From positions 1-45,432 of IMG/VR virus record IMGVR_UViG_3300024999_000173: a DNA stretch of 45,432 bases; one strand, 5' to 3'. Source of the DNA: a virus. A model generated the notes under the pieces. It made no database searches. It was given only the letters and a program-made list of their open reading frames with translations, and was not told where the DNA came from. Positions 5,548-29,531 of this stretch are shown here, piece after piece. Numbering within the stretch: position 1 is the first letter of the stretch; every line of letters starts with the position of its first letter. A program made the translations under genes and the position numbers.

Positions 5548-6210
5548 TCATCGATACTGTCGTTTCAACCTGTTATAAAGCTCGATGTTTGTTTTGGCAA
5601 GCCTTGCCTGCTCAGTAAGATTGTAGTCCGGGGATTTCTTGTCGAAGTATTTAGCCTCCGAGTTCATACCATCCCCGCCCCCACCGTTGGCTCCGCCACC
5701 AGAATTACCGGAAACCACGAAATGTTTTCCAACTTCTGACGCGGCCCATTCCTTAACGAAATCAGTTACTTTTTTGTCCCCGACCATGGCCTTACCAGTG
5801 TCGTCTACTGCAATATTGGGTAAAATGTTGTTGATGGCAATATCAAACAATGGGGCCGGAATACTGATGCCACTGGAAGTAATAGCAGAAACCACAGCAT
5901 TTTTCTTATTCATGGCGAGAATGGTTTCCTTGGCAGCAGAAAGATCAGAAACGAGTTTGCCGGTTTCTTTGTCTTTTTCGGCCTTCAGAGTATCATAGAG
6001 TTTTTTATACTCGCCTTTTTCCTCGTCACCTTTTTTCTTGATATCTTCTAATTCGGTCTTGGCGGCAAGAAGACTATCGATGTCGATGTCTTTAACCTTG
6101 TCAGCCACTTCGCTCAGCTTCTTTATTTTGCCGAGAAGCTCCGAATTTTTGGATTTCAGTCCTTCAGTAGCAGCGTCCACTGCAGCTTTAATTTCTTCCT
6201 CGGTAGCCAT
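5548..6210 (-). CDS. Capsid scaffold protein
   Basis: This 220-residue protein has an N-terminal two-thirds that is a highly charged coiled coil (about residues 1-105, KSKNSELLGKIKKLSEVADKV type). A globular segment follows (110-160), then a Gly-rich linker (SGGGANGGGGDG) and a basic C-terminus (YNRLKRQYR). This build and the position between portal and capsid genes are typical of scaffolds that organise procapsid assembly. No protease motif was seen. The leader carries ACCACCACACAGGAG. Confidence 0.8.
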   Translation of the reverse strand: MATEEEIKAAVDAATEGLKSKNSELLGKIKKLSEVADKVKDIDIDSLLAAKTELEDIKKKGDEEKGEYKKLYDTLKAEKDKETGKLVSDLSAAKETILAMNKKNAVVSAITSSGISIPAPLFDIAINNILPNIAVDDTGKAMVGDKKVTDFVKEWAASEVGKHFVVSGNSGGGANGGGGDGMNSEAKYFDKKSPDYNLTEQARLAKTNIELYNRLKRQYR

Positions 6211-6231
6211 AATTTTCTCCTGTGTGGTGGT

Positions 6232-7704
6232 TTAGGCGTTGCGTCGATCTATTTTTAATTTTGATTCGGGGTCCGGGGGTTCAGGGAGATCATCGTCTTC
6301 TTCCTCTTTACCCTCAGCCTTGGCCAGGGATTCAGTCTTCTTTACTTCATCCTCCAGCCGTTTCTTTTGCTCAGCAGAAATGGCGGCGAGTTCATCCTCA
6401 ATTTTTCTGTCGCCGTCCACAACATCGCCACTTTTCAGAGTATTGAAAAGGGTTTCGTAGGAAATTGATCCCTTGATCCAGGCCGTGACGTACGACAACA
6501 TATCTGATCCAGTAAGGACGGACGGCATAAAGTCAGAGTTGATATTGAGAGTGACTGATGCCGGATCTTCTTTCTTCCACCAGGAAATCACCCGCACTGC
6601 CTCTGTAATTTCTCTCGACAAAACCCTGGTGATCCCCGCCAGCGACGAGGTTTCTGCGTTGGAACGGATGGCAGCAGCAAGGGCGGATTCATCATTGGAT
6701 GATTTTTCCGGGGCCAAAATTCGACTGGCCAGGATCACGATCATCTCAATAACTGATTCAATGGCTTTGGCAATCTGCGTAAGACCTGCACCGGTAAACT
6801 CCAGCATACCACACTGGCAATTTTCATCAAGGAACCACAAGGTGGTCGGTCCGATGGATTTCGGAGCACCCGGATCATCCTTACTCATGCCGGAAACCCA
6901 GGGAGTCGGCAGGGCGACATAGTGTAAGCCGTGCTTATAATCGGCATCCAGTTGGTAGTGGTGAATATTTTGGTCGGCCACTGATAGCAAGGGTGGGTAC
7001 TTCACCTTGATGCCGCCGTGAATATAGAACGGAATAAAAGTCAACTCTTTGCCGTCACGTAGGGGAAAAATATCTGCTTCAATCTGTTCGCTATCTTTAT
7101 TGAATAGCCGCTGCCGGTATTTCCCGCCAAACAGATCCAGGACCCGGTATTGATATTCTTCGTCGGTGCTGAACTCGTCGTCGCCAATTACCTGTATTTT
7201 TTCACACAGGACCACCATCGACAGGACTTCAACATTGTTTACCAGCGAGGTTCGCCAGTTAATGATGTCGTTTACGCCGTAGAACAGTAAACGCGGAAAG
7301 ATGTTATTATTGATCTCATCGGCAACTGTCAGTGTTTCCTTAACCAGTGGCATGTCCACCAGGGTGCCACAGCGACCATAAGTGAGAAAGTGCTCAAGCA
7401 AATTGCCCACGTAAGTGTTGATGTCGTTACCTTTACCGTCGATATTAATCGATTCAAATCCGCCCACTTCCACTTTCTTGCGCATTACCATACCGCAGAA
7501 TGCTTCGATGGTGCGTTTGGTAAAGGTTACGAACGATCCCCGATTTTTATAGGCAGTGTAGGCATCATCTGTCATGCCAATAAGGCGCGGCAGATAAGTT
7601 TCTCCGTAGGCGTGGATAACTTTCTCGCAAGAACAGGCATGGGTCATTTTTTCCCATTCGCTGATCATTGCGGTGTAGTCAATATGGGCGTTATCTACAG
7701 ACAT
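6232..7704 (-). CDS. Portal protein (DUF4055-like)
   Basis: This 490-residue protein has an N-terminus (WEKMTHACSCEKVIHAYGETYLP followed by DDAYTAYKNRGSFVTFTKRTIEAFCGMVMRKK) that matches the DUF4055 portal pattern. It would form the dodecameric ring through which DNA is packaged. The C-terminal 60 residues are a charged helix (EQKKRLEDEVKKTESLAKAEGKEEEDDD). The gene overlaps the 60-residue zinc-protein gene by 10 bp. The order terminase, portal, scaffold, capsid is standard. Confidence 0.85.
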   Translation of the reverse strand: MSVDNAHIDYTAMISEWEKMTHACSCEKVIHAYGETYLPRLIGMTDDAYTAYKNRGSFVTFTKRTIEAFCGMVMRKKVEVGGFESINIDGKGNDINTYVGNLLEHFLTYGRCGTLVDMPLVKETLTVADEINNNIFPRLLFYGVNDIINWRTSLVNNVEVLSMVVLCEKIQVIGDDEFSTDEEYQYRVLDLFGGKYRQRLFNKDSEQIEADIFPLRDGKELTFIPFYIHGGIKVKYPPLLSVADQNIHHYQLDADYKHGLHYVALPTPWVSGMSKDDPGAPKSIGPTTLWFLDENCQCGMLEFTGAGLTQIAKAIESVIEMIVILASRILAPEKSSNDESALAAAIRSNAETSSLAGITRVLSREITEAVRVISWWKKEDPASVTLNINSDFMPSVLTGSDMLSYVTAWIKGSISYETLFNTLKSGDVVDGDRKIEDELAAISAEQKKRLEDEVKKTESLAKAEGKEEEDDDLPEPPDPESKLKIDRRNA

Positions 7705-21366: not shown

Positions 21367-22119
21367 ATGGCAAAGAAGAACGAAGAATCAACGGAATTAG
21401 TAGCCACGACTGGAGTGCTGTCCTTTGAAATGCCCGAATGGATGAAAGGCATGGAGCAGGACGACCGGGGCAATGAGGGCATTACCAAGGAAGACCTCGT
21501 AATCCCCCGCTTGTCCATCATTCAGGCCATCAGTCCGGAACTTGATGAAAATGACCCCGCCTACATTGAAGGGGCCAAGGCTGGTATGCTGTTCAATACT
21601 CTGACCCGGAAGCTTTATACTGAGATCCTGGTTGTACCGATCATGTACGAGAAAGTCTACCTCATTTGGCGTGACCGCAAAAAAGGCGGCGGATTCGGCG
21701 GCCAGTATACTACTGAAAATGAAGCTGGCGCGGCTATCGGGGAAATGGAAGATCCCGACAGCTGGGAAGCTACCGATACCCCGACCCATTTGTGCCTTGC
21801 CGTGTCGGATGGTAAGCCATTTGAAATCGCTATCCCCATGCCGAAGTCCAAGGCCAAGATCAGTCGGCAGCTCAATTCAACCATTCGTTTGTTCGGTGGC
21901 CCTCGGTTCAGTAGGGTTTACCGCGTTACTGGTGTTGATGACAAGAATAACGCTGGTGAAAAATTCAAAAACTTCCGGATCGACTTCGCCGGATTCCCAT
22001 CCAAAGAGCTTTTCGATGTCGCTGAGAAGCTGTTCACCGATCTGTCGTCCGGTAACATCAAGTATAAGGTCGACGATAATTATGAAGAGGCAGAACCAAC
22101 CAAAAAGACTCCGTTTTGA
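21367..22119 (+). CDS. Probable DNA-metabolism protein, recombination accessory type
   Basis: This 250-residue protein contains EDLVIPRLSIIQAISPELDEN, IEGAKAGMLFNTLTRKLYTE and ILVVPIMYEKVYLIWRDR. This is the pattern of a phage protein repeatedly found beside polymerase and helicase genes and sometimes annotated as ssDNA-binding. The C-terminus is acidic before a final TKKTPF. The leader contains AACCACCAC. The gene has canonical signals and the following helicase starts inside its stop. The function is not established by sequence. Confidence 0.65.
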   Translation: MAKKNEESTELVATTGVLSFEMPEWMKGMEQDDRGNEGITKEDLVIPRLSIIQAISPELDENDPAYIEGAKAGMLFNTLTRKLYTEILVVPIMYEKVYLIWRDRKKGGGFGGQYTTENEAGAAIGEMEDPDSWEATDTPTHLCLAVSDGKPFEIAIPMPKSKAKISRQLNSTIRLFGGPRFSRVYRVTGVDDKNNAGEKFKNFRIDFAGFPSKELFDVAEKLFTDLSSGNIKYKVDDNYEEAEPTKKTPF

Positions 22120-23186
22120 AGGTTGATATTGTCATAGGGTGTCCGGGGGCAGGGAAGAGTACCTTTTTAGCGAAGGTTGCAAACACTCTCCCCCCGGACA
22201 ATACTCTTATCTTGTCTTACTCCAGATCAGCATCAACGAGTATAGCCATGAAAGCGGGAAGAGGGTATAAAGCCTCAACTATACATTCTCTCTGTTTCCA
22301 TGATATGGGTATTATCCCGCAGCAGATCCTGCAGGGACGGCAGATAGATGAATTCTGTAAGATGATCGGGGTGCAGCCCCCTAATTCCGGGTATGAGCGC
22401 TATGAACCATCCATGCACCAATTTGAGGTCTATAGTTGGGCCAGGACCACCGGTACAGATCCCTTGGAAGCTTTTTTCCGGTTCTCTGATCTGGTAGAGT
22501 TTACCTTTAACGAATACGTCTTTTTCGTAAAATCTCTGCTACGATACAAAGAGACTTTTGGAGTTTATGAATTTCATGATCTCCTGGACAACTTTAACCC
22601 GATTGAGGCCCCCGATAATTTATTAATTGACGAGGCCCAAGATAATAGTTATTCGCTTACCATGGCCCTGCAGAAATTGGTGATGGCAGGGGTAAAAAAG
22701 ATGTGGATAGTGGGTGATCCGAATCAGGCCATCTATACTTATTCCGGGGCCGACCCTAAATGGATGTACCATTTTGATGGCAAAGAAGTTTTCCTGGATC
22801 AGTCTTACCGCTGCCCGGTATCAGTCGTTAGTAAGGCCAAAACCCTTTTTACAGAGGCCAAGTTTAACCCTATCGACGAGCCGGGGGAAGTGATCAGGGA
22901 AATCGACGTTCCTGCCAACTCGGACATGATCCTGGTCAGGACTAACTATATTGGTTATAAACTGATGAAACAGACTGGTATCGATAAAAAGAAAATACTG
23001 ACCATTCATAAGGCCAAGGGGCTGCAGGGGGATCACGTGGTTATTTATAACGCTACCACTAGACGTGTGAGATCCTCCACAGAACTTGATCCGATCGCTG
23101 AAAAAAGATTAATGTACACGGCAATCACCAGGGCAAGAAAGAAGTTAACAATAATAGACGGGGGGAATCCAAATGAGTGGCTCTAA
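22116..23186 (+). CDS. UvrD/Rep-like superfamily 1 helicase
   Basis: This 356-residue protein starts with TTG at 22116, which overlaps the preceding stop (TTGA) and leaves a full Walker A at residues 8-16 (GCPGAGKST). DEAQDN (D172, E173) is motif II. GDPNQAIYTYSG is the Q-rich motif III, QSYRCP motif IV, TIHKAKGLQGDHVV motif V and YTAITRARKKL motif VI. It is half the size of UvrD: most of the 1B/2B domain insertions are missing, as in small phage members. A role in replication restart or recombination fits the neighbours. Confidence 0.9.
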   Translation: MKVDIVIGCPGAGKSTFLAKVANTLPPDNTLILSYSRSASTSIAMKAGRGYKASTIHSLCFHDMGIIPQQILQGRQIDEFCKMIGVQPPNSGYERYEPSMHQFEVYSWARTTGTDPLEAFFRFSDLVEFTFNEYVFFVKSLLRYKETFGVYEFHDLLDNFNPIEAPDNLLIDEAQDNSYSLTMALQKLVMAGVKKMWIVGDPNQAIYTYSGADPKWMYHFDGKEVFLDQSYRCPVSVVSKAKTLFTEAKFNPIDEPGEVIREIDVPANSDMILVRTNYIGYKLMKQTGIDKKKILTIHKAKGLQGDHVVIYNATTRRVRSSTELDPIAEKRLMYTAITRARKKLTIIDGGNPNEWL

Positions 23187-23502
23187 CCAAACAGTAATTA
23201 AGTGCAAGGGAAACGTAAATCTTGAAGTAGGGCAAGATCAATTAACAATCTGTGGCCAACCGCTGGAAATATATATTGAAGTGGCCAGAGAACGGATTAG
23301 GCAAGAAACAAAATGGGGGCAGCAGAATCATCAGCCGATAATATGGTCAAATATCCTTGGTGAAGAATTTGGGGAAGTTTACAAGGCGATAAACGAGGCC
23401 ATATTTAATGGTTCTTCGTGGCTTGACTATCGAGAGGAATTGGTACAGGTAGCGGCAGTGGCCATCGCTGCGGTGGAATCACTCGACAGAAACACCAAAT
23501 GA
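23173..23502 (+). CDS. MazG-like NTP pyrophosphohydrolase
   Basis: This 109-residue protein would hydrolyse (d)NTPs to monophosphate and pyrophosphate. The all-alpha MazG pattern is visible: ARERIRQETKWGQQNH (about residues 38-53), the Mg-binding EExxE at GEEFGEV (64, 65, 68), and YREELVQVAAVA (86-97), in which the usual Asp of ExxD is Gln. In Z-DNA phages a MazG-type enzyme (MazZ) makes dGMP for PurZ. This gene sits directly before the polymerase with a 4-bp overlap and is one of two MazZ candidates. Residues 1-30 are an extra beta-like lead. Confidence 0.78.
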   Translation: MSGSNQTVIKCKGNVNLEVGQDQLTICGQPLEIYIEVARERIRQETKWGQQNHQPIIWSNILGEEFGEVYKAINEAIFNGSSWLDYREELVQVAAVAIAAVESLDRNTK

Positions 23503-25268
23503 CTAGGGAACTATTTTTTGATACTGAGGGCACCGGTCTTAATATGATCAGTGGTGCCGACAGGGCAACAGACATTTCATATGCCATGGGTGATGGCCCT
23601 GTAAAATACGTAGACCTTCGCGCTGATTCCCCGGAAGAATTTATTAAGATGGTAGATGATGCGGAAGTAATTGTGGCCCACGGCACCAAATTCGACGCGC
23701 ATAGTCTGCGTACTATCGGCATTGACATCTCAAATAAGAACCTGGATTGTACCCTGGTCCGGGCACAGTTGATTGACGAGCACAAGCTGACTTATGATCT
23801 GGACTCTCTCACCGGCATGAAGGTCAACATTATTGATGATCTGGCTGCCATGTTCGGTGGCAGGGCTACCAAGAACGTCCAAATGCCGAATCTACACAAG
23901 GCACCCAGGGATTTTAAGGAAAAGTATGCCGTTGGTGATGTCCTGGCTATGCGGTCACTATACCGACAGCAGGAGGGTAAATTACCCCCGGTCCACGCCC
24001 TGGAAAAAGAGGTCCTTAATATCCTGATCAAGATGGAACAGAAGGGAATCCGGGTAGACGGCGATCGGCTGGACAAGGCAAAAAGAGATGTACAACGGTT
24101 AATCGATCGGACCCAAAAAGAACTGAACGAAATGGCGGGGAAAGAGGTCAATGTTAACTCTACTCCCCAAATGCGCGATTTACTTATAGCCACGGAGGTG
24201 CAAGATGGACGAGTGGTGCCGAAAACTAAAGCTGGCAAATGCGTACTTATTGATGGCACTCTTGCTGATAAAACTAAAACGGGTGGAGTTTCTCTTAATG
24301 CTGAAACGCTGGAGGAAATGTCGCACCCGATTGCCGAAGCCATTCTTAAAGTAAGAAAGTATCGTAAGATCCATGACACCTTCATTGTGTCGCAGCTGAT
24401 GGGCCATCAGACCAGGGGAAGAGTACACCCCAATTTTAATCAAACACGGGTTGTGACGGGCCGGTTGTCCTGTAATAATCCCAACCTTCAGGCCGTACCG
24501 AAAAGGGACCCGGAGATGAAGGCCATCCTTCGTCCTCTTTTTTTGCCGGACGATGGCGCACAGCTTTTAAAATGCGACTATGACCAATCAGACGTTCGGG
24601 GATTTGCCCACTACATTTATTCGGTGACCAACGACAAGAATCACCCGATTCTGCAGGCTTACCAGAAGGACCCGGATACTGATTTTCATACTTTCGTATC
24701 AGAGTTATTGGGGATTCGCAGGAATCCCGGACCAGGGGGAGGGGCAAACGCCAAACAGATTAACCTAGCCATGATTTTTAATATGGGCATGGGGAAGCTA
24801 GCCAAACAAATGGGACTGCCGTATGAGGAGGAAATCGGCAGGAATAAGAAAGTTTACTTGAAGCCGGGGCAGGAAGCTATTGACGTTTTCAACATGTACC
24901 ACAGCAAAATCCCCGGTGCAGCAGACATGGCACAGATGGCATCGTCTATTGCTGCCAGCCGGGGTTATGTGACATCGATCTGTGGAAGGCACCTACGATT
25001 TCCGGATAAACGGTTCACCTACAAGGCCAGTGGCTATCTTTACCAGAGCTTTACTGCCGATCTGATAAAAAAGGCCATGGTAGAAACGGCCAAGATAGTT
25101 GTGCCACAGCTTTCAGTACATGATGAATTGTTATTCAGCATTTACGACAAGGAAACGGCTTTCGCCATTCAGAAAGTTATGCAGGAAGTATTTGCGAACC
25201 TGACGGTAATTCCGATCAGGACAAAGCCAGAAGTTGGTCGTTCATGGGGGGAGGTTAATTTTATATGA
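23499..25268 (+). CDS. dpoZ: Family A DNA polymerase with 3'-5' exonuclease (DpoZ candidate)
   Basis: This 589-residue polymerase has no 5'-3' exonuclease domain. The proofreading domain shows DTE (D8, E10), HGTKFDAH (D66) and YAVGD (about 145-149). Polymerase motif A is DYDQSDVR (360-367, versus the usual DYSQIELR), motif B KQINLAMIFNMGMG (from K419) and motif C VHDE (H541-E543). Catalytic D360 and D542 are present. Polymerases that co-occur with PurZ (DpoZ) prefer dZTP over dATP; whether this one does cannot be read from the motifs, and the assignment rests on the linked purZ and datZ. It has ATGA overlaps at both ends. Confidence 0.9.
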   Translation: MTRELFFDTEGTGLNMISGADRATDISYAMGDGPVKYVDLRADSPEEFIKMVDDAEVIVAHGTKFDAHSLRTIGIDISNKNLDCTLVRAQLIDEHKLTYDLDSLTGMKVNIIDDLAAMFGGRATKNVQMPNLHKAPRDFKEKYAVGDVLAMRSLYRQQEGKLPPVHALEKEVLNILIKMEQKGIRVDGDRLDKAKRDVQRLIDRTQKELNEMAGKEVNVNSTPQMRDLLIATEVQDGRVVPKTKAGKCVLIDGTLADKTKTGGVSLNAETLEEMSHPIAEAILKVRKYRKIHDTFIVSQLMGHQTRGRVHPNFNQTRVVTGRLSCNNPNLQAVPKRDPEMKAILRPLFLPDDGAQLLKCDYDQSDVRGFAHYIYSVTNDKNHPILQAYQKDPDTDFHTFVSELLGIRRNPGPGGGANAKQINLAMIFNMGMGKLAKQMGLPYEEEIGRNKKVYLKPGQEAIDVFNMYHSKIPGAADMAQMASSIAASRGYVTSICGRHLRFPDKRFTYKASGYLYQSFTADLIKKAMVETAKIVVPQLSVHDELLFSIYDKETAFAIQKVMQEVFANLTVIPIRTKPEVGRSWGEVNFI

Positions 25269-25402
25269 CATGTAATAATTGCGGGGGGACGATGGTTGGA
25301 GATGGAGTAACAGAACCCATCCGATGTGAAAACGTGGAACTTGGCGATTGGGAGTATAGAGAACCCGATTGTAATCCGATTGATTGCGAGGACGAGAAAT
25401 GA
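25265..25402 (+). CDS. 45-residue Cys-containing acidic protein
   Basis: The start overlaps the polymerase stop and the stop overlaps the SSB start. It begins MTCNNCGGTMVGDG, giving one CxxC, with three further single Cys and a very acidic C-terminus (IDCEDEK). It may bind zinc. The function is unknown. Confidence 0.55.
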   Translation: MTCNNCGGTMVGDGVTEPIRCENVELGDWEYREPDCNPIDCEDEK

Positions 25403-25806
25403 TCAACGAGGTAAGATTAATAGGCAATGTGGGGCAGGACCCCAGGATCAACAAAAACAGCAAAGGAACCATGGCCACTTTTTCTGTTGCCACTACTGAG
25501 AAATGGAAGGATAAGCGGACCGGTGATTGGCAGGAAAAGACGGAGTGGCACAAATGCGTTGCCTTCGGCTATCCGGCAGACTATGTTGACCAGTACCTGG
25601 AAAAGGGTGCTCTGGTTTATGTCGAGGGGTCAATGCAGTATGGTAAGTATGAACGGGACGGCGTTGAGATCCCTACTGCCGAGGTCAAAGCACAAAAAGT
25701 AAAAATTTTAAAGAAACAGGGGGATCGAGACAATCAGGCCAGGGACGGGAACAAGTCTACGGACAACGGGTACATGGGCAGCACAGGTTCTGACGTACCA
25801 TTTTAA
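25399..25806 (+). CDS. ssb: Single-stranded DNA-binding protein
   Basis: The start is at 25399 (MINEVRLIGNVGQDP), in the stop of the previous small gene; an in-frame upstream codon is unnecessary. The 135 residues form an OB-fold SSB: VRLIGNVGQDP, TMATFSVATTEKW, EWHKCVAFGYPADYVDQYLEKGALVYVEG. A disordered tail follows, ending in the acidic DVPF tip that recruits partner proteins in bacterial SSBs. It would protect the template during replication. The length is slightly below bacterial SSB. Confidence 0.95.
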   Translation: MINEVRLIGNVGQDPRINKNSKGTMATFSVATTEKWKDKRTGDWQEKTEWHKCVAFGYPADYVDQYLEKGALVYVEGSMQYGKYERDGVEIPTAEVKAQKVKILKKQGDRDNQARDGNKSTDNGYMGSTGSDVPF

Positions 25807-25815
25807 GGAGACATT

Positions 25816-26148
25816 ATGAAATGTTGCACTCTTGAGTGTTACTCTGTGGCAATGGCCAAATCAACAGACACCGACAGGGAGTTCTGTATTGAATGCGCCA
25901 TCAAGATTGCCAAGCACTTTGGCCCGGATAAGATAGTGACTTTGCCGGGAATGAGGTTTCCCTGGGATTACGGGGTAGACGGCCACTGCCCCCATTGCGG
26001 TATAAGTTACAACCGGTACCTGATCAATGTTACTGGTGATTGCCCCGCATGTAAAGCCCCACTGCCGGAGTATAAACGGCCAACCTTGGAAATGAAACCG
26101 TGGGACGACGACAGAAAAATAGAGTATCGGGAAGGCCCACACGACTAA
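25816..26148 (+). CDS. Zinc-ribbon protein
   Basis: This 110-residue protein has N-terminal single Cys residues (KCCTLECYSV, FCIECAIKIAKHFG) and then a classical ribbon CPHCGISYNRYLINVTGDCPAC (about residues 57-78). An AAGGAG site precedes the start. It is placed between SSB and purZ. The function is unknown; two zinc sites are likely. Confidence 0.65.
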   Translation: MKCCTLECYSVAMAKSTDTDREFCIECAIKIAKHFGPDKIVTLPGMRFPWDYGVDGHCPHCGISYNRYLINVTGDCPACKAPLPEYKRPTLEMKPWDDDRKIEYREGPHD

Positions 26149-26160
26149 TTGGGGGCACCA

Positions 26161-26355
26161 ATGGATAAAGAGTATTTCTGGGCAAGGTATAGGTCAGGTG
26201 ATTGGCGGATAGCAGAAAAGAGGTTCTTGAATAGGTGGTTTGTTTGTGGGGTTGGTCACATAAAAAACCACGTTATTTTTGAAGGGTACCGTAGCCCCAA
26301 ATCACCGGACGATATTGTTGAAATCGGGGAAAAGGTAATTTGCCCCTATAAATAA
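26161..26355 (+). CDS. 64-residue protein of unknown function
   Basis: The ATG at 26161 was chosen over an in-frame TTG at 26149. It is Trp/Arg-rich at the N-terminus (MDKEYFWARYRSGDWRIAEKR) and has a short strand region. No family was recognised. A leader of AAACCACCACA follows its stop and precedes purZ. Confidence 0.55.
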   Translation: MDKEYFWARYRSGDWRIAEKRFLNRWFVCGVGHIKNHVIFEGYRSPKSPDDIVEIGEKVICPYK

Positions 26356-26384
26356 AAACCACCACACATTAGAGGAGATTTGCG

Positions 26385-27401
26385 ATGAATGTACATGTTG
26401 TTTACGGCGGTCAGTTCGGCAGTGAGTCAAAACGGTTGTTTACCGAGTATTACTGCAAGAATTGGCAGCCAGGGGCCATCATTACCAATGCTATGCCCAA
26501 CAGCGGCGGATTTGATAGTGTAGGCGACAAATGGTCCACCCTGCCGATCGGCTACCCAGCTACCTTGATGATTTCCCCTGGATCAGTGATTAATCTCGAT
26601 AATCTCAAGAAAGAGATTAAGCAGCTACCGAAAGGGGCCAAGGTAGTCATTCACGAAAATGCAGCAGTGATCGACGATAGTCACTTCACAAGTGAAAAGG
26701 ACTATGTTCGGGTTGGTTCTACCATGACCGGGGGAGCAGCTGCTGCAAAACAGAAAATGGACCGGGACCCAAGTGCACGAATCCTGGCCAGGGATTATTT
26801 TGAAGACACCCTGAACAATGCCGCCTGGATACGGGAATTGCACAAACACGATAAGGTCCTAGCGGTCTGTGCACAGGGTCACAGTCTGTCGCTCAATTTC
26901 GGTTTCTGGCCATACACTACCAGCAGGAATACCAGTCCTGCTCAAGTCATTGCCGATGCCGGAATTTCTCCGATGGCAGTTAAACGGATTATTGGCTGTT
27001 TTCGGACCTTCCCAATTCGGGTATCCAACCGATTCGATGAAATGGGAGAAATGGTGGGTTGGTCCGGTCCCTGTTATTCTGACCAGGAGGAATTGTCCTG
27101 GGAAGATATCGGGGTTCCGCAGGAGTTTACCAGTGTCAGCAAAAAGGTTCGTAGAGTATTTACATTTTCACATCAGCAATTGGTCGAATCAGTCCTGCTC
27201 AATGGCACCACCGATGTCTTTCTCGGTTTTATCAATTATTTGCCGGTCTACATGCAGGATGATTTTTTCCGGGCTGTGCGGGACACCTGCCTAAATAACG
27301 GGGCCAATTTATCGTGGATCGGTTGCGGTAAGACCACTGACGACATCTTTTCCCGCATTAGTGATAAAGGATATGGTTTTGACATTTCCTGGATAAAGTA
27401 A
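26385..27401 (+). CDS. purZ: 2-amino-dAMP (dZMP) precursor synthetase PurZ, adenylosuccinate-synthetase family
   Basis: This 338-residue protein is predicted to join Asp to dGMP using ATP or dATP, giving N6-succino-2-amino-dAMP, which host PurB converts to dZMP. PurA-family marks are the P-loop GGQFGSESK (residues 8-16), GSTMTGGAAAAKQKMDRD (111-128), AQGHSLSLNFG (163-173), WPYTTSRNTSPAQVI and RTFPIRVSN. The catalytic Asp of PurA (GDEGKGK) is Ser13, the replacement described for PurZ, which makes room for the 2-amino group. The NNAGHT loop is NSGGFD (39-44), so the usual active-site His is not in place, which is odd. It is shorter than bacterial PurA (about 430). It has a strong ribosome site and a hairpin terminator. 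Confidence 0.9.
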   Translation: MNVHVVYGGQFGSESKRLFTEYYCKNWQPGAIITNAMPNSGGFDSVGDKWSTLPIGYPATLMISPGSVINLDNLKKEIKQLPKGAKVVIHENAAVIDDSHFTSEKDYVRVGSTMTGGAAAAKQKMDRDPSARILARDYFEDTLNNAAWIRELHKHDKVLAVCAQGHSLSLNFGFWPYTTSRNTSPAQVIADAGISPMAVKRIIGCFRTFPIRVSNRFDEMGEMVGWSGPCYSDQEELSWEDIGVPQEFTSVSKKVRRVFTFSHQQLVESVLLNGTTDVFLGFINYLPVYMQDDFFRAVRDTCLNNGANLSWIGCGKTTDDIFSRISDKGYGFDISWIK

Positions 27402-27410
27402 CCTTAACCG

Positions 27411-27428
27411 GGGGCTTCAGCCCCTTTT
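27411..27428 (+). terminator. Terminator after purZ
   Basis: GGGGC and GCCCC flank TTCA and are followed by TTTT, 10 bp past the stop. This is a short rho-independent terminator, probably partial since more genes follow without a new clear promoter. Confidence 0.65.
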
Positions 27429-27441
27429 AAAGGAGGAATAT

Positions 27442-27861
27442 ATGGACCAGAAGTTTGGGCCAAAAATTCCATTTACCCTTGAAATAAATCCGGGGGGGAT
27501 GGAAGGGTTAAAAAAGGCCCTGGAACGGAAGAACAGGAAATGGGACGACGGCAAGTTAAAATACCACCTGATCCTGCCGCAGTTCCTGGAGTTGATGGCA
27601 GAAATTCTTACACGAGGTGAAATCAATCACCCAAAAGAACCAAACGGTACCCCCTCCTGGCAGTTGGTAGAAAAAGAGGCGTATGAGGATGCTCTATTTC
27701 GCCATTTTCAGGCATACCGCAGGGGGGAGATCATTGACCCGGACCCCAAGATGCCGACCGATCACATGGGCAACATTGCCGTAAACGCCATGTTCTTGTG
27801 GTGGTTTAATCGGCAGCGGGAAGGGTATCTGGGGGAAACTGACACAGTTAACGAGGACTAA
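27442..27861 (+). CDS. DUF5664-type dATP/dGTP diphosphohydrolase-like protein (MazZ candidate)
   Basis: This 139-residue protein contains RKWDDGKLKYHLILPQFLELMAEIL (from residue 32), EKEAYEDALFRHFQAYRRGE and DHMGNIAVNAMFLWWF. This is the helix pattern of the phage DUF5664 family, whose members are linked to dATP/dGTP pyrophosphohydrolases in Z-DNA phages. It would act on dGTP to feed dGMP to PurZ, or on dATP. It lies directly after purZ. With the MazG-like gene at 23173 it makes two possible sources of MazZ activity; sequence alone does not say which is active. Confidence 0.78.
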   Translation: MDQKFGPKIPFTLEINPGGMEGLKKALERKNRKWDDGKLKYHLILPQFLELMAEILTRGEINHPKEPNGTPSWQLVEKEAYEDALFRHFQAYRRGEIIDPDPKMPTDHMGNIAVNAMFLWWFNRQREGYLGETDTVNED

Positions 27862-27862
27862 T

Positions 27863-28063
27863 ATGCTACCAAAAATTCCGTCTTCCCTGGACGAGGCCAT
27901 GAAGACCACTTATGCGGGACCATGGCACATACGATATAACCCAAATAAGTGCGCTTGTCCTGTTTATGATTGCGGGGCAGGGCGGTATCTTCAGTGCCAA
28001 AACCCCAACGGGTACGGGGTTGATGGGATTTTTTGTAAAGGCCACAAGGAGCCAAAATCATGA
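27863..28063 (+). CDS. 66-residue Cys-rich protein
   Basis: The start follows GAGGACTAAT. Cys residues at CACPVYDCGAGRYLQC and FCKGH suggest a zinc or disulfide knot. WHIRYNPNKCACPVYDC gives a possible treble-clef. It lies between the two putative Z-pathway hydrolases and overlaps the second by 4 bp. The function is unknown. Confidence 0.6.
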   Translation: MLPKIPSSLDEAMKTTYAGPWHIRYNPNKCACPVYDCGAGRYLQCQNPNGYGVDGIFCKGHKEPKS

Positions 28064-28545
28064 CAGAAATAAGAGATCATTTTCCAGCACCGTTTGGAAA
28101 GCACCCGGAATTAAGGGCAGGAATCGTTCCCCGGTGGGCAATTATTAAAACATCAAAAACTCAATCCGTTGCAGAGCATTCCTACAACGTGGCAATGATA
28201 ACCCGGATCATTTTGACTGGCTTTATTTTGACCCCGCTGGATGACAATGATATTATCCTGATGGCCCTGGACCATGATTGGAAATCTGAGGTCTACACCG
28301 GAGATATCCCTAATCCTGCCAAAGTGCGTAACCCCAATGCAGAGGTCCTGTCGATCGAAGAAGCAATCATAAAGCTGGCAGACTGTATCGAGGGTTACGC
28401 TTTTATTAACAGGAATTGCAGCGACTCCACATCGGTAAAAATGTGGGTGATGGGCGATCTAGAAGTACAGATTAATGCCCTATGTAATTTTCTGGAAATA
28501 AACGGCAGGGACATCTGGCCTACAATCTCAGGGATGGTATTATAA
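28060..28545 (+). CDS. datZ: HD-domain dATP triphosphohydrolase DatZ
   Basis: This 161-residue protein is predicted to convert dATP to deoxyadenosine and triphosphate, clearing dATP so that only dZTP is available. The YfbR-like HD fold is clear: RWAII (25-29), SVAEHS (H40), DHDWKSEVYTGDIPNP (H72, D73, E77) and KLADCIEGY (D108), which together give the metal ligands H, HD, D. Cellular YfbR relatives act on dNMPs; linkage to purZ and the phage setting favour DatZ. It has ATGA coupling upstream. Confidence 0.85.
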   Translation: MTEIRDHFPAPFGKHPELRAGIVPRWAIIKTSKTQSVAEHSYNVAMITRIILTGFILTPLDDNDIILMALDHDWKSEVYTGDIPNPAKVRNPNAEVLSIEEAIIKLADCIEGYAFINRNCSDSTSVKMWVMGDLEVQINALCNFLEINGRDIWPTISGMVL

Positions 28546-29127
28546 ATGAAAAAGATTTTATTTGTTGATACGGAAACAACCGGCCTAGACCCTAAGATTA
28601 ACGGCATCCATCAGATCGCTGCTCAGATCGTTGTTGATGGCAAAATGGAAATGGAGTTTGATTTTAAATTCCGTCCACTCGACACCGAAAAGATCGAACC
28701 GGAGGCCCTGGCAGTGTCTGGTTTAACGGTAGAAGAAGTCATGGCCCGACCTTTATCGAGCAAGGACGTTTATAAAAAGATCGACTCGATTCTCTGCCAG
28801 TTTGTAAACAAGTATGATAAGCACGATAAAATGGTGATATCGGGCTATAATTGCAATTTCGACGCTCAATTTCTCAGCGAATGGTACAAGAAGCACAATA
28901 ACAAGTATTTCTTTGGCCTGTGCCATGGTGGAGCATACTTGGACGGCTTGACTATGGCCCTGCTACTGGAAATAAAAAAGGGAGAAAAGGTATTTTTCCC
29001 GGATCGGAAATTGGGTACGGTGGCAAAACACCTGGGTGTTCAATTGGATGATGCCCACGATGCCTTGGCCGACATTATCGCTACCAGGGACGTAATACGG
29101 TCCTTATGGAGGGAATTGGGGCTATGA
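28546..29127 (+). CDS. DnaQ-like 3'-5' exonuclease
   Basis: This 193-residue DEDDh exonuclease shows DTETTGL (D8, E10), GYNCNFDAQFL (second Asp), and HLGVQLDDAHDALADI (HD..A.AD, the His-containing third motif). It is a free-standing proofreading-type nuclease. The polymerase already has its own DEDDy domain, so this is a second one; it may act in recombination, mismatch removal or host DNA breakdown. It directly follows datZ. Confidence 0.88.
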   Translation: MKKILFVDTETTGLDPKINGIHQIAAQIVVDGKMEMEFDFKFRPLDTEKIEPEALAVSGLTVEEVMARPLSSKDVYKKIDSILCQFVNKYDKHDKMVISGYNCNFDAQFLSEWYKKHNNKYFFGLCHGGAYLDGLTMALLLEIKKGEKVFFPDRKLGTVAKHLGVQLDDAHDALADIIATRDVIRSLWRELGL

Positions 29128-29531
29128 GCGAAAAGACACTGTGGAAATGGTTAAACAAAAAGATGGCCCATGACCCAAATTGGAGAAGTGCCAGATTGGA
29201 AAAATGTTTAGAAAAAGGAATCCCGGATGCGGTGGTGCGGTTTACTGATTCAAATTCACGGACGATGCTTATTACTTTTATGGAATTAAAGGATTGGTCA
29301 GAATCCCCAAAGCACCCTTTATCAGTAGAACAGAAAAATTTCATTCAAACATTCGGCGGGGCAGTGTTGATTAGAGCACAAGATAAATTGTGCATGTTAG
29401 GCAAGAATCACAATCTTGTGCCACTGATGTCTGCTGATGTTGGGTACGCACTTAGTCACGGGATAGTTACCCCCATTTCAGATTTTACCCCGGCATGGCT
29501 AAATGCGGCCCTTACACATTGTGAACTGTGA
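29124..29531 (+). CDS. PD-(D/E)XK nuclease, VRR-NUC-like
   Basis: The start is at 29124, in the stop of the exonuclease gene (ATGA) with GGAGGG upstream; an in-frame ATG at 29106 would be inside that gene. Of 135 residues, RLEKCLEKGIPD (E26, D35) and MELKDW (E54, K56) form the catalytic core, followed by EQKNFIQTFGGAVLIRA, as in VRR-NUC/Holliday-junction-resolvase-like nucleases. It is the last early gene and its end overlaps the convergent late operon by 20 bp. Junction resolution before packaging is plausible. Confidence 0.8.
   Translation: MSEKTLWKWLNKKMAHDPNWRSARLEKCLEKGIPDAVVRFTDSNSRTMLITFMELKDWSESPKHPLSVEQKNFIQTFGGAVLIRAQDKLCMLGKNHNLVPLMSADVGYALSHGIVTPISDFTPAWLNAALTHCEL

Follow-up and report, generated by a model that had tools for sequence, protein, structure and literature searches.

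The window analysed in the present study, a stretch of 45,432 bases, is an entire IMG/VR virus record, and its tape measure, portal, major capsid and large terminase genes are those of a tailed phage. No nucleotide-level relatives of this virus were found among named phages. Its replication operon lies on the + strand from a helicase gene (22116) to a VRR-NUC-like gene (29531), and the interval 23499-28545 within it is a dZ-DNA module that encodes DpoZ, SSB, PurZ, a standalone DUF5664 protein and DatZ (Table 1). An earlier note on this DNA had named six genes here (these five and a MazG-like gene), and all of them proved to be real + strand open reading frames at or very near the positions it had assigned to them. 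The synthetase belongs to a branch of PurZ sequences from six independent contigs, namely this virus, L018, L019, L021, L188 and L103. Another contig, 3300025012_000275, matches this virus without a difference over 11,121 bases and was treated as the same virus. L018 was also met with in Desulfobulbus sp. Tol-SR (contig L102), and L103 is a contig of a Gammaproteobacteria MAG.

Table 1. Genes of the replication operon and altered motifs of PurZ, with positions in the window
Feature	Position	Strand	Evidence or remark
SF1 (UvrD/Dda-like) helicase, upstream neighbour in the operon	22116..23186	+	phrog_1967, E 3e-50
MazG-like protein, 109 aa	23173..23502	+	phrog_2831, E 1e-21
DpoZ, phiVC8-like 2-aminoadenine-selective family A DNA polymerase with 3'-5' exonuclease	23499..25268	+	PF00476, NF038380
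SSB (single-strand DNA-binding protein)	25384..25806	+	PF00436, E 9e-27
Small Cys-rich (zinc-ribbon-like) protein between SSB and PurZ	25816..26148	+	weak PF18073
PurZ (2-amino-deoxyadenylosuccinate synthetase), variant branch	26385..27401	+	PF00709; phrog_1211, E 3e-50; NF038379
PurZ P-loop, codons 12-18, GSESKRL	26418..26438	+	Ser13 and Lys16 kept; Gly15 to Ser, Gly17 to Arg
PurZ codons 38-44, PNSGGFD	26496..26516	+	replaces PNAGHT; active-site His (S-2L H52) and Thr (T53) gone
PurZ codons 161-166	26865..26882	+	Val161 where Glu is invariant elsewhere; His166 new and present throughout the branch
Standalone DUF5664 (dATP/dGTP diphosphohydrolase N-terminal type), in the mazZ slot	27442..27861	+	PF18909, E 6e-22
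66-aa Cys-rich ORF between DUF5664 and DatZ	27863..28063	+	conserved in L018 and L019
DatZ-like HD dATP triphosphohydrolase	28060..28545	+	YfbR-like PF12917; phrog_7076 'dATP triphosphohydrolase', E 7e-21
DnaQ-like 3'-5' exonuclease, downstream neighbour	28546..29127	+	PF00929, E 2e-15
VRR-NUC-like nuclease, module end	29106..29531	+	weak PF08774

The order helicase, DpoZ, SSB, PurZ, dNTP pyrophosphohydrolase and DatZ is shared with Acinetobacter phage SH-Ab 15497 (MG674163), a known Z phage with characterised DpoZ and nucleotide enzymes (PMC8599892, PMC12884076). Because this order recurs in SH-Ab 15497 and in related IMG/VR contigs, and module genes adjoin most PurZ loci (DatZ, DpoZ and a MazZ/DUF5664 gene in most of those examined), a chance assembly of these genes is excluded. 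The helicase occupies the equivalent position in SH-Ab 15497, L019 and L103, and the position of the small Cys-rich protein is conserved in L018, L019 and L103. Downstream, counterparts of the DnaQ-like exonuclease were found in L018, L019, L021, L103 and L188, and those of the VRR-NUC-like nuclease in L018, L019, L103 and L188. In addition, the product of 21367-22119 matches Pam3_Gp34 (PF23977, E 1e-63), with this upstream gene also conserved in L019 and L103. A primase-like protein encoded at 16756-18288 matches the AEP-TOTE primase domain (PF22548, E 1e-16), and it is a possible source of primers for the Z polymerase.

The polymerase reached 544.8 bits against the DpoZ model NF038380, above the curated cut-off of 500, which four relatives also pass. 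Its best match in the PDB was 7pbk, the DpoZ of phiVC8 (E 4.5e-86), and it is 40% identical to the DpoZ of SH-Ab 15497. It was scored for the determinants given in PMC8599892. The exonuclease residues D8/E10/D66 and the helix-E2 pair K125 and M129 are retained, together with F427 (the Tyr to Phe steric gate), L423 and G512, which correspond in the latter two cases to L455 and G548 of phiVC8. The helix-O insertion (insertion 2) is present at residues 410-416, and the palm insertion 1 (G349-G353 in phiVC8) is deleted.

The HD protein agrees with cyanophage S-2L DatZ at all catalytic and adenine-selecting residues. R25, W26, I28, Q35, A38, H40 and H72 correspond to R19, W20, I22, Q29, A32, H34 and H66 of the S-2L enzyme, and D73, G81, P86, K88, K105 and D108 to its D67, G74, P79, K81, K116 and D119. 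Thus, this virus keeps all the residues with which S-2L DatZ is described to bind metal, phosphates and deoxyribose and to exclude a 2-amino group (PMC8065100). The two proteins differ by a one-residue insertion in HD-WK-SE and by the deletion of about 20 residues before K105 in this virus. In L103, the DatZ (6177-6632) carries FHELDE, in which HE replaces the HD pair of the metal site.

The closest sequence matches of the synthetase were phage PurZ proteins, with the S-2L PurZ in the PDB scoring 154 bits and PurA structures scoring far lower than PurZ structures. The phylogeny that the earlier note had proposed as a check puts it among the phage PurZ sequences, its branch supported at 100/100, and leaves E. 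coli PurA and a PurZ0 outside. The AF2 model (pLDDT 92) superimposes on phiVC8 and S-2L PurZ with TM scores of 0.85-0.86, and the likeness to these two enzymes extends from the fold to the Ser replacing Asp13 and to the dGMP pocket. The best NCBIfam model was PurZ NF038379, at 209 bits, below its curated cut-off of 300. Branch members score 188-220 bits, compared with 421 for SH-Ab 15497, 397 for phiVC8 and 350 for S-2L, and the PurZ of Ochrobactrum phage OH likewise lies under the cut-off (241 bits). Since the curated score and the P-loop/His motif both failed, we regard the protein as a variant that probably works like PurZ and not as a standard member.

The earlier note had characterised this synthetase by an Asp-to-Ser change. 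The Ser is present at the position of E. coli Asp13, and it is kept by all branch members, but that description understates the divergence, as the active-site His, the P-loop Gly and a Glu have also been lost. Asp13 and His41 of E. coli PurA have an established catalytic role. All six branch members carry GSE(S/A/G)KR in the P-loop, where the others have GSTGKG or GSEGKG, and all six have PNSGG[FY] in place of PNAGH; the PurZ of SH-Ab 15497, 34% identical to that of this virus, retains GSTGKG and NAGHT. At the site of a Glu (S-2L E187) that is invariant elsewhere, V, I or F was found in 6/6. Among 208 PurA/PurZ-like sequences, six have the Arg without the His, 202 the His without the Arg, and none is mixed. 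This covariation is a single event in one branch, that is, a shared change and not a repeated co-evolution. The His166 that is constant in the branch occurs at this position in only 3/92 elsewhere among phages.

For the two sides of the active site, dGMP and donor contacts were mapped on S-2L PurZ, using the contact list from PMC8342488. The dGMP contacts are either retained or replaced conservatively; at 15/15 dGMP-contact positions, the residues of this virus also occur in other phage PurZ, the uncommon one being A50 to S (4/92). Of the five donor-triphosphate contacts in S-2L, the branch retains S23 and G51 and has lost H52 and T53, and only one member still has G25. Relative to S-2L and phiVC8 PurZ, the branch thus has G25, H52 and T53 changed or deleted, with G27 to R and E187 to V/I/F besides. 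At N305, the S-2L contact to the donor adenine, three of the aligned branch members have Gly and two have Asn. Judged from the alignment, the acceptor (dGMP) side is conserved and the donor-triphosphate side rebuilt. The dN/dS of PurZ between close branch members is 0.11-0.12, a level of purifying selection that argues against decay and for a working protein. Neither an assembly error nor decay was accepted as the source of the lost His, given that six separate contigs share the loss and that the close ones have this ratio. Nevertheless, the branch PurZ cannot be assumed to act exactly like characterised PurZ. We think that Arg17 and/or His166 may take over the task of the lost His, or that the donor differs. 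The most far-reaching reading is that the enzyme makes the Z precursor through a catalytic arrangement that differs from those of all known PurA and PurZ, perhaps with another phosphate donor, the P-loop Arg and/or the relocated His replacing the His; we put it forward tentatively, at somewhat less than even odds.

The earlier note had inferred that this is a 2-aminoadenine virus, and our results agree with it: DpoZ lies over its cut-off, the DatZ residues are intact, PurZ is nested among phage PurZ and the gene order follows that of Z phages. On this genomic evidence, we consider Z-DNA in this virus likely, with a probability of about 0.87. Palindrome counts were also compared. A-containing 6-base palindromes occur at 0.85 of expectation in this virus, at 0.88-0.92 in three Z phages and at 0.60-0.79 in six non-Z controls. 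The ratio is nearer to that of the Z phages and agrees weakly with Z-DNA, and with the resistance to restriction at A-containing sites that the earlier note had expected, the controls being few. G+C-only 6-base palindromes are strongly avoided in this virus (9 seen against 57 expected), and A-containing ones mildly.

In PurZ phages, the gene between purZ and datZ is usually a DUF550 (MazZ-1, sometimes fused to DUF5664) or a MazZ-2 gene (PMC8342488, PMC12884076). Neither a DUF550 nor a MazZ-2 match was found in this virus. The slot is filled by the standalone DUF5664 here and in L018 and L019, and by a MazG-type gene in L021, L188 and L103, which also fall in this PurZ branch. The strongest argument that DUF5664 here has the job of MazZ is this in-place swap. 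The Pfam match reaches 78 bits against a gathering score of 27, and the AF2 model is all-helical (pLDDT 80), with no significant match in the PDB. Standalone DUF5664 was also found in the other PurZ contigs L034, L035, L038, L041, L072, L075 and L089. SH-Ab 15497, in contrast, has a DUF5664-DUF550 fusion. A standalone DUF5664 in a Z phage has its likeness in Arthrobacter phage Wayne (PurZ0 type), where the protein converts dATP, dGTP and dUTP to monophosphates (PMC12884076), but Wayne uses PurZ0, DutZ and DmtZ, whereas this virus has PurZ and DatZ. The DUF5664 of this virus has NH where relatives have KY. By pairwise similarity, its nearest named relative is that of Limnohabitans phage DC31 and not the Z-phage fusions, which hints at a separate acquisition; DC31 is absent from the PurZ matches listed.

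The assignment of the MazG-like gene at 23173 as MazZ, which the earlier note implies, is probably incorrect. If its product were the dGTPase, DUF5664 would have another role, and for this reading speak the MazG-type EExxE motif and the place of the gene in the operon, where it overlaps the helicase and DpoZ genes. It lies, however, outside the purZ-datZ slot, which is held by DUF5664, and it was found in no other PurZ locus scanned, including L018, L019, L021 and L103. Furthermore, this family has EExxE...ExxQ rather than ExxD; the homologue GAP32_129 of Cronobacter phage GAP32 shares GEEFGEV...REELVQVAAVA with it and also has ExxQ. A MazZ role for the 23173 protein is therefore unlikely, and it is probably accessory. 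The standalone DUF5664, which holds the mazZ slot, is the better candidate for dGMP supply.

Other readings concern the outcome of the pathway as a whole. The altered PurZ and the standalone DUF5664 might supply less dZTP, so that a weak pathway would leave a mixture of A and Z in virion DNA. Conserved catalytic residues are indeed missing from PurZ, DUF5664 alone is a slow dGTPase in Wayne (kcat 0.053 per s; PMC12884076), and DpoZ on its own does not fully keep out A (PMC8599892). Such partial substitution nevertheless seems quite improbable to us, given that DatZ looks fully equipped for dATP removal and the entire module is under purifying selection. The same losses in PurZ (the His of the active site, the Gly of the P-loop and the Glu, each constant throughout the remaining homologues) could mean that the enzyme is inactive or has a new role, in a genome with ordinary A. 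Against this stand the retention of the variant by six separate contigs under the low dN/dS noted above, the intact dGMP pocket, and the DpoZ, DatZ and MazZ-type genes kept alongside it in branch members with readable flanks, and we give this reading very little weight. Membership in the PurA superfamily (PF00709) is what would suggest an ordinary PurA, with IMP as its substrate and a role in raising the adenine supply of the host. The Ser in place of Asp13, the low scores of PurA structures, the position of PurA outside in the tree and a dATP-destroying gene nearby make this the least credible of the readings, and we hardly credit it at all.

Full replacement of A is the reading that we prefer. 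From the gene content, synteny, conservation, selection and fold described above, we infer that the virus would build its DNA with 2-aminoadenine (Z) instead of A. In this scheme, the standalone DUF5664 would convert dGTP to dGMP and dATP to dAMP, and PurZ would join aspartate and dGMP to 2-amino-deoxyadenylosuccinate, which the host lyase (PurB) and kinases would carry on to dZTP. dATP would be destroyed by DatZ, and DpoZ would prefer dZTP over dATP. The branch PurZ is predicted still to yield the PurZ product, the Arg and/or the new His replacing the lost His or accommodating a different donor. Several points count against this account. PurZ lies under its cut-off and is without the His kept by the 202 others, and its activity is not guaranteed; DpoZ is without insertion 1, the DUF5664 of Wayne acts slowly on dGTP, and the DUF5664 here has NH for KY. 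With these points included, we hold the account as a whole to be very probable.

Ser13 PurA/PurZ-like genes were also seen in cellular contexts. In L109:3025-7279 (Pseudomonas sp. TH43), L108, L118, L142 and L150, the bacterial protein has an N-terminal AAA_18 kinase-like fusion. DUF7002 follows such fused genes in 48/74 loci, often with a second AAA kinase, and an M78/IrrE peptidase lies upstream in 30/74. The fused protein had no PADLOC match; these loci are possibly a defence or nucleotide-handling system. A second context, in L164:2955-7718 (Mariprofundus erugo), L174 and L130, combines RNase_H_2, a kinase-like protein, the PurZ-like gene and a dCTP-deaminase-like gene, with a deoxynucleoside kinase in L164 and L174.

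The Z-DNA pathway has been described before. Two things look new: a PurZ branch that has a rebuilt donor-phosphate side and appears to be undescribed in the searchable literature, and the exchange of DUF5664 and MazG-type genes within that branch. Very few natural DNAs depart from the A-T-G-C alphabet; Z-DNA is one of them, and PurZ catalyses the step that commits to it. A PurZ that nature has kept under selection without the otherwise constant active-site His would reveal how much of the site can be dispensed with. The branch enzyme could differ in donor preference, which would be useful for making Z-DNA. It is suggested by the swap between close relatives that the dGMP supply is interchangeable, and this extends the convergence described in PMC12884076.
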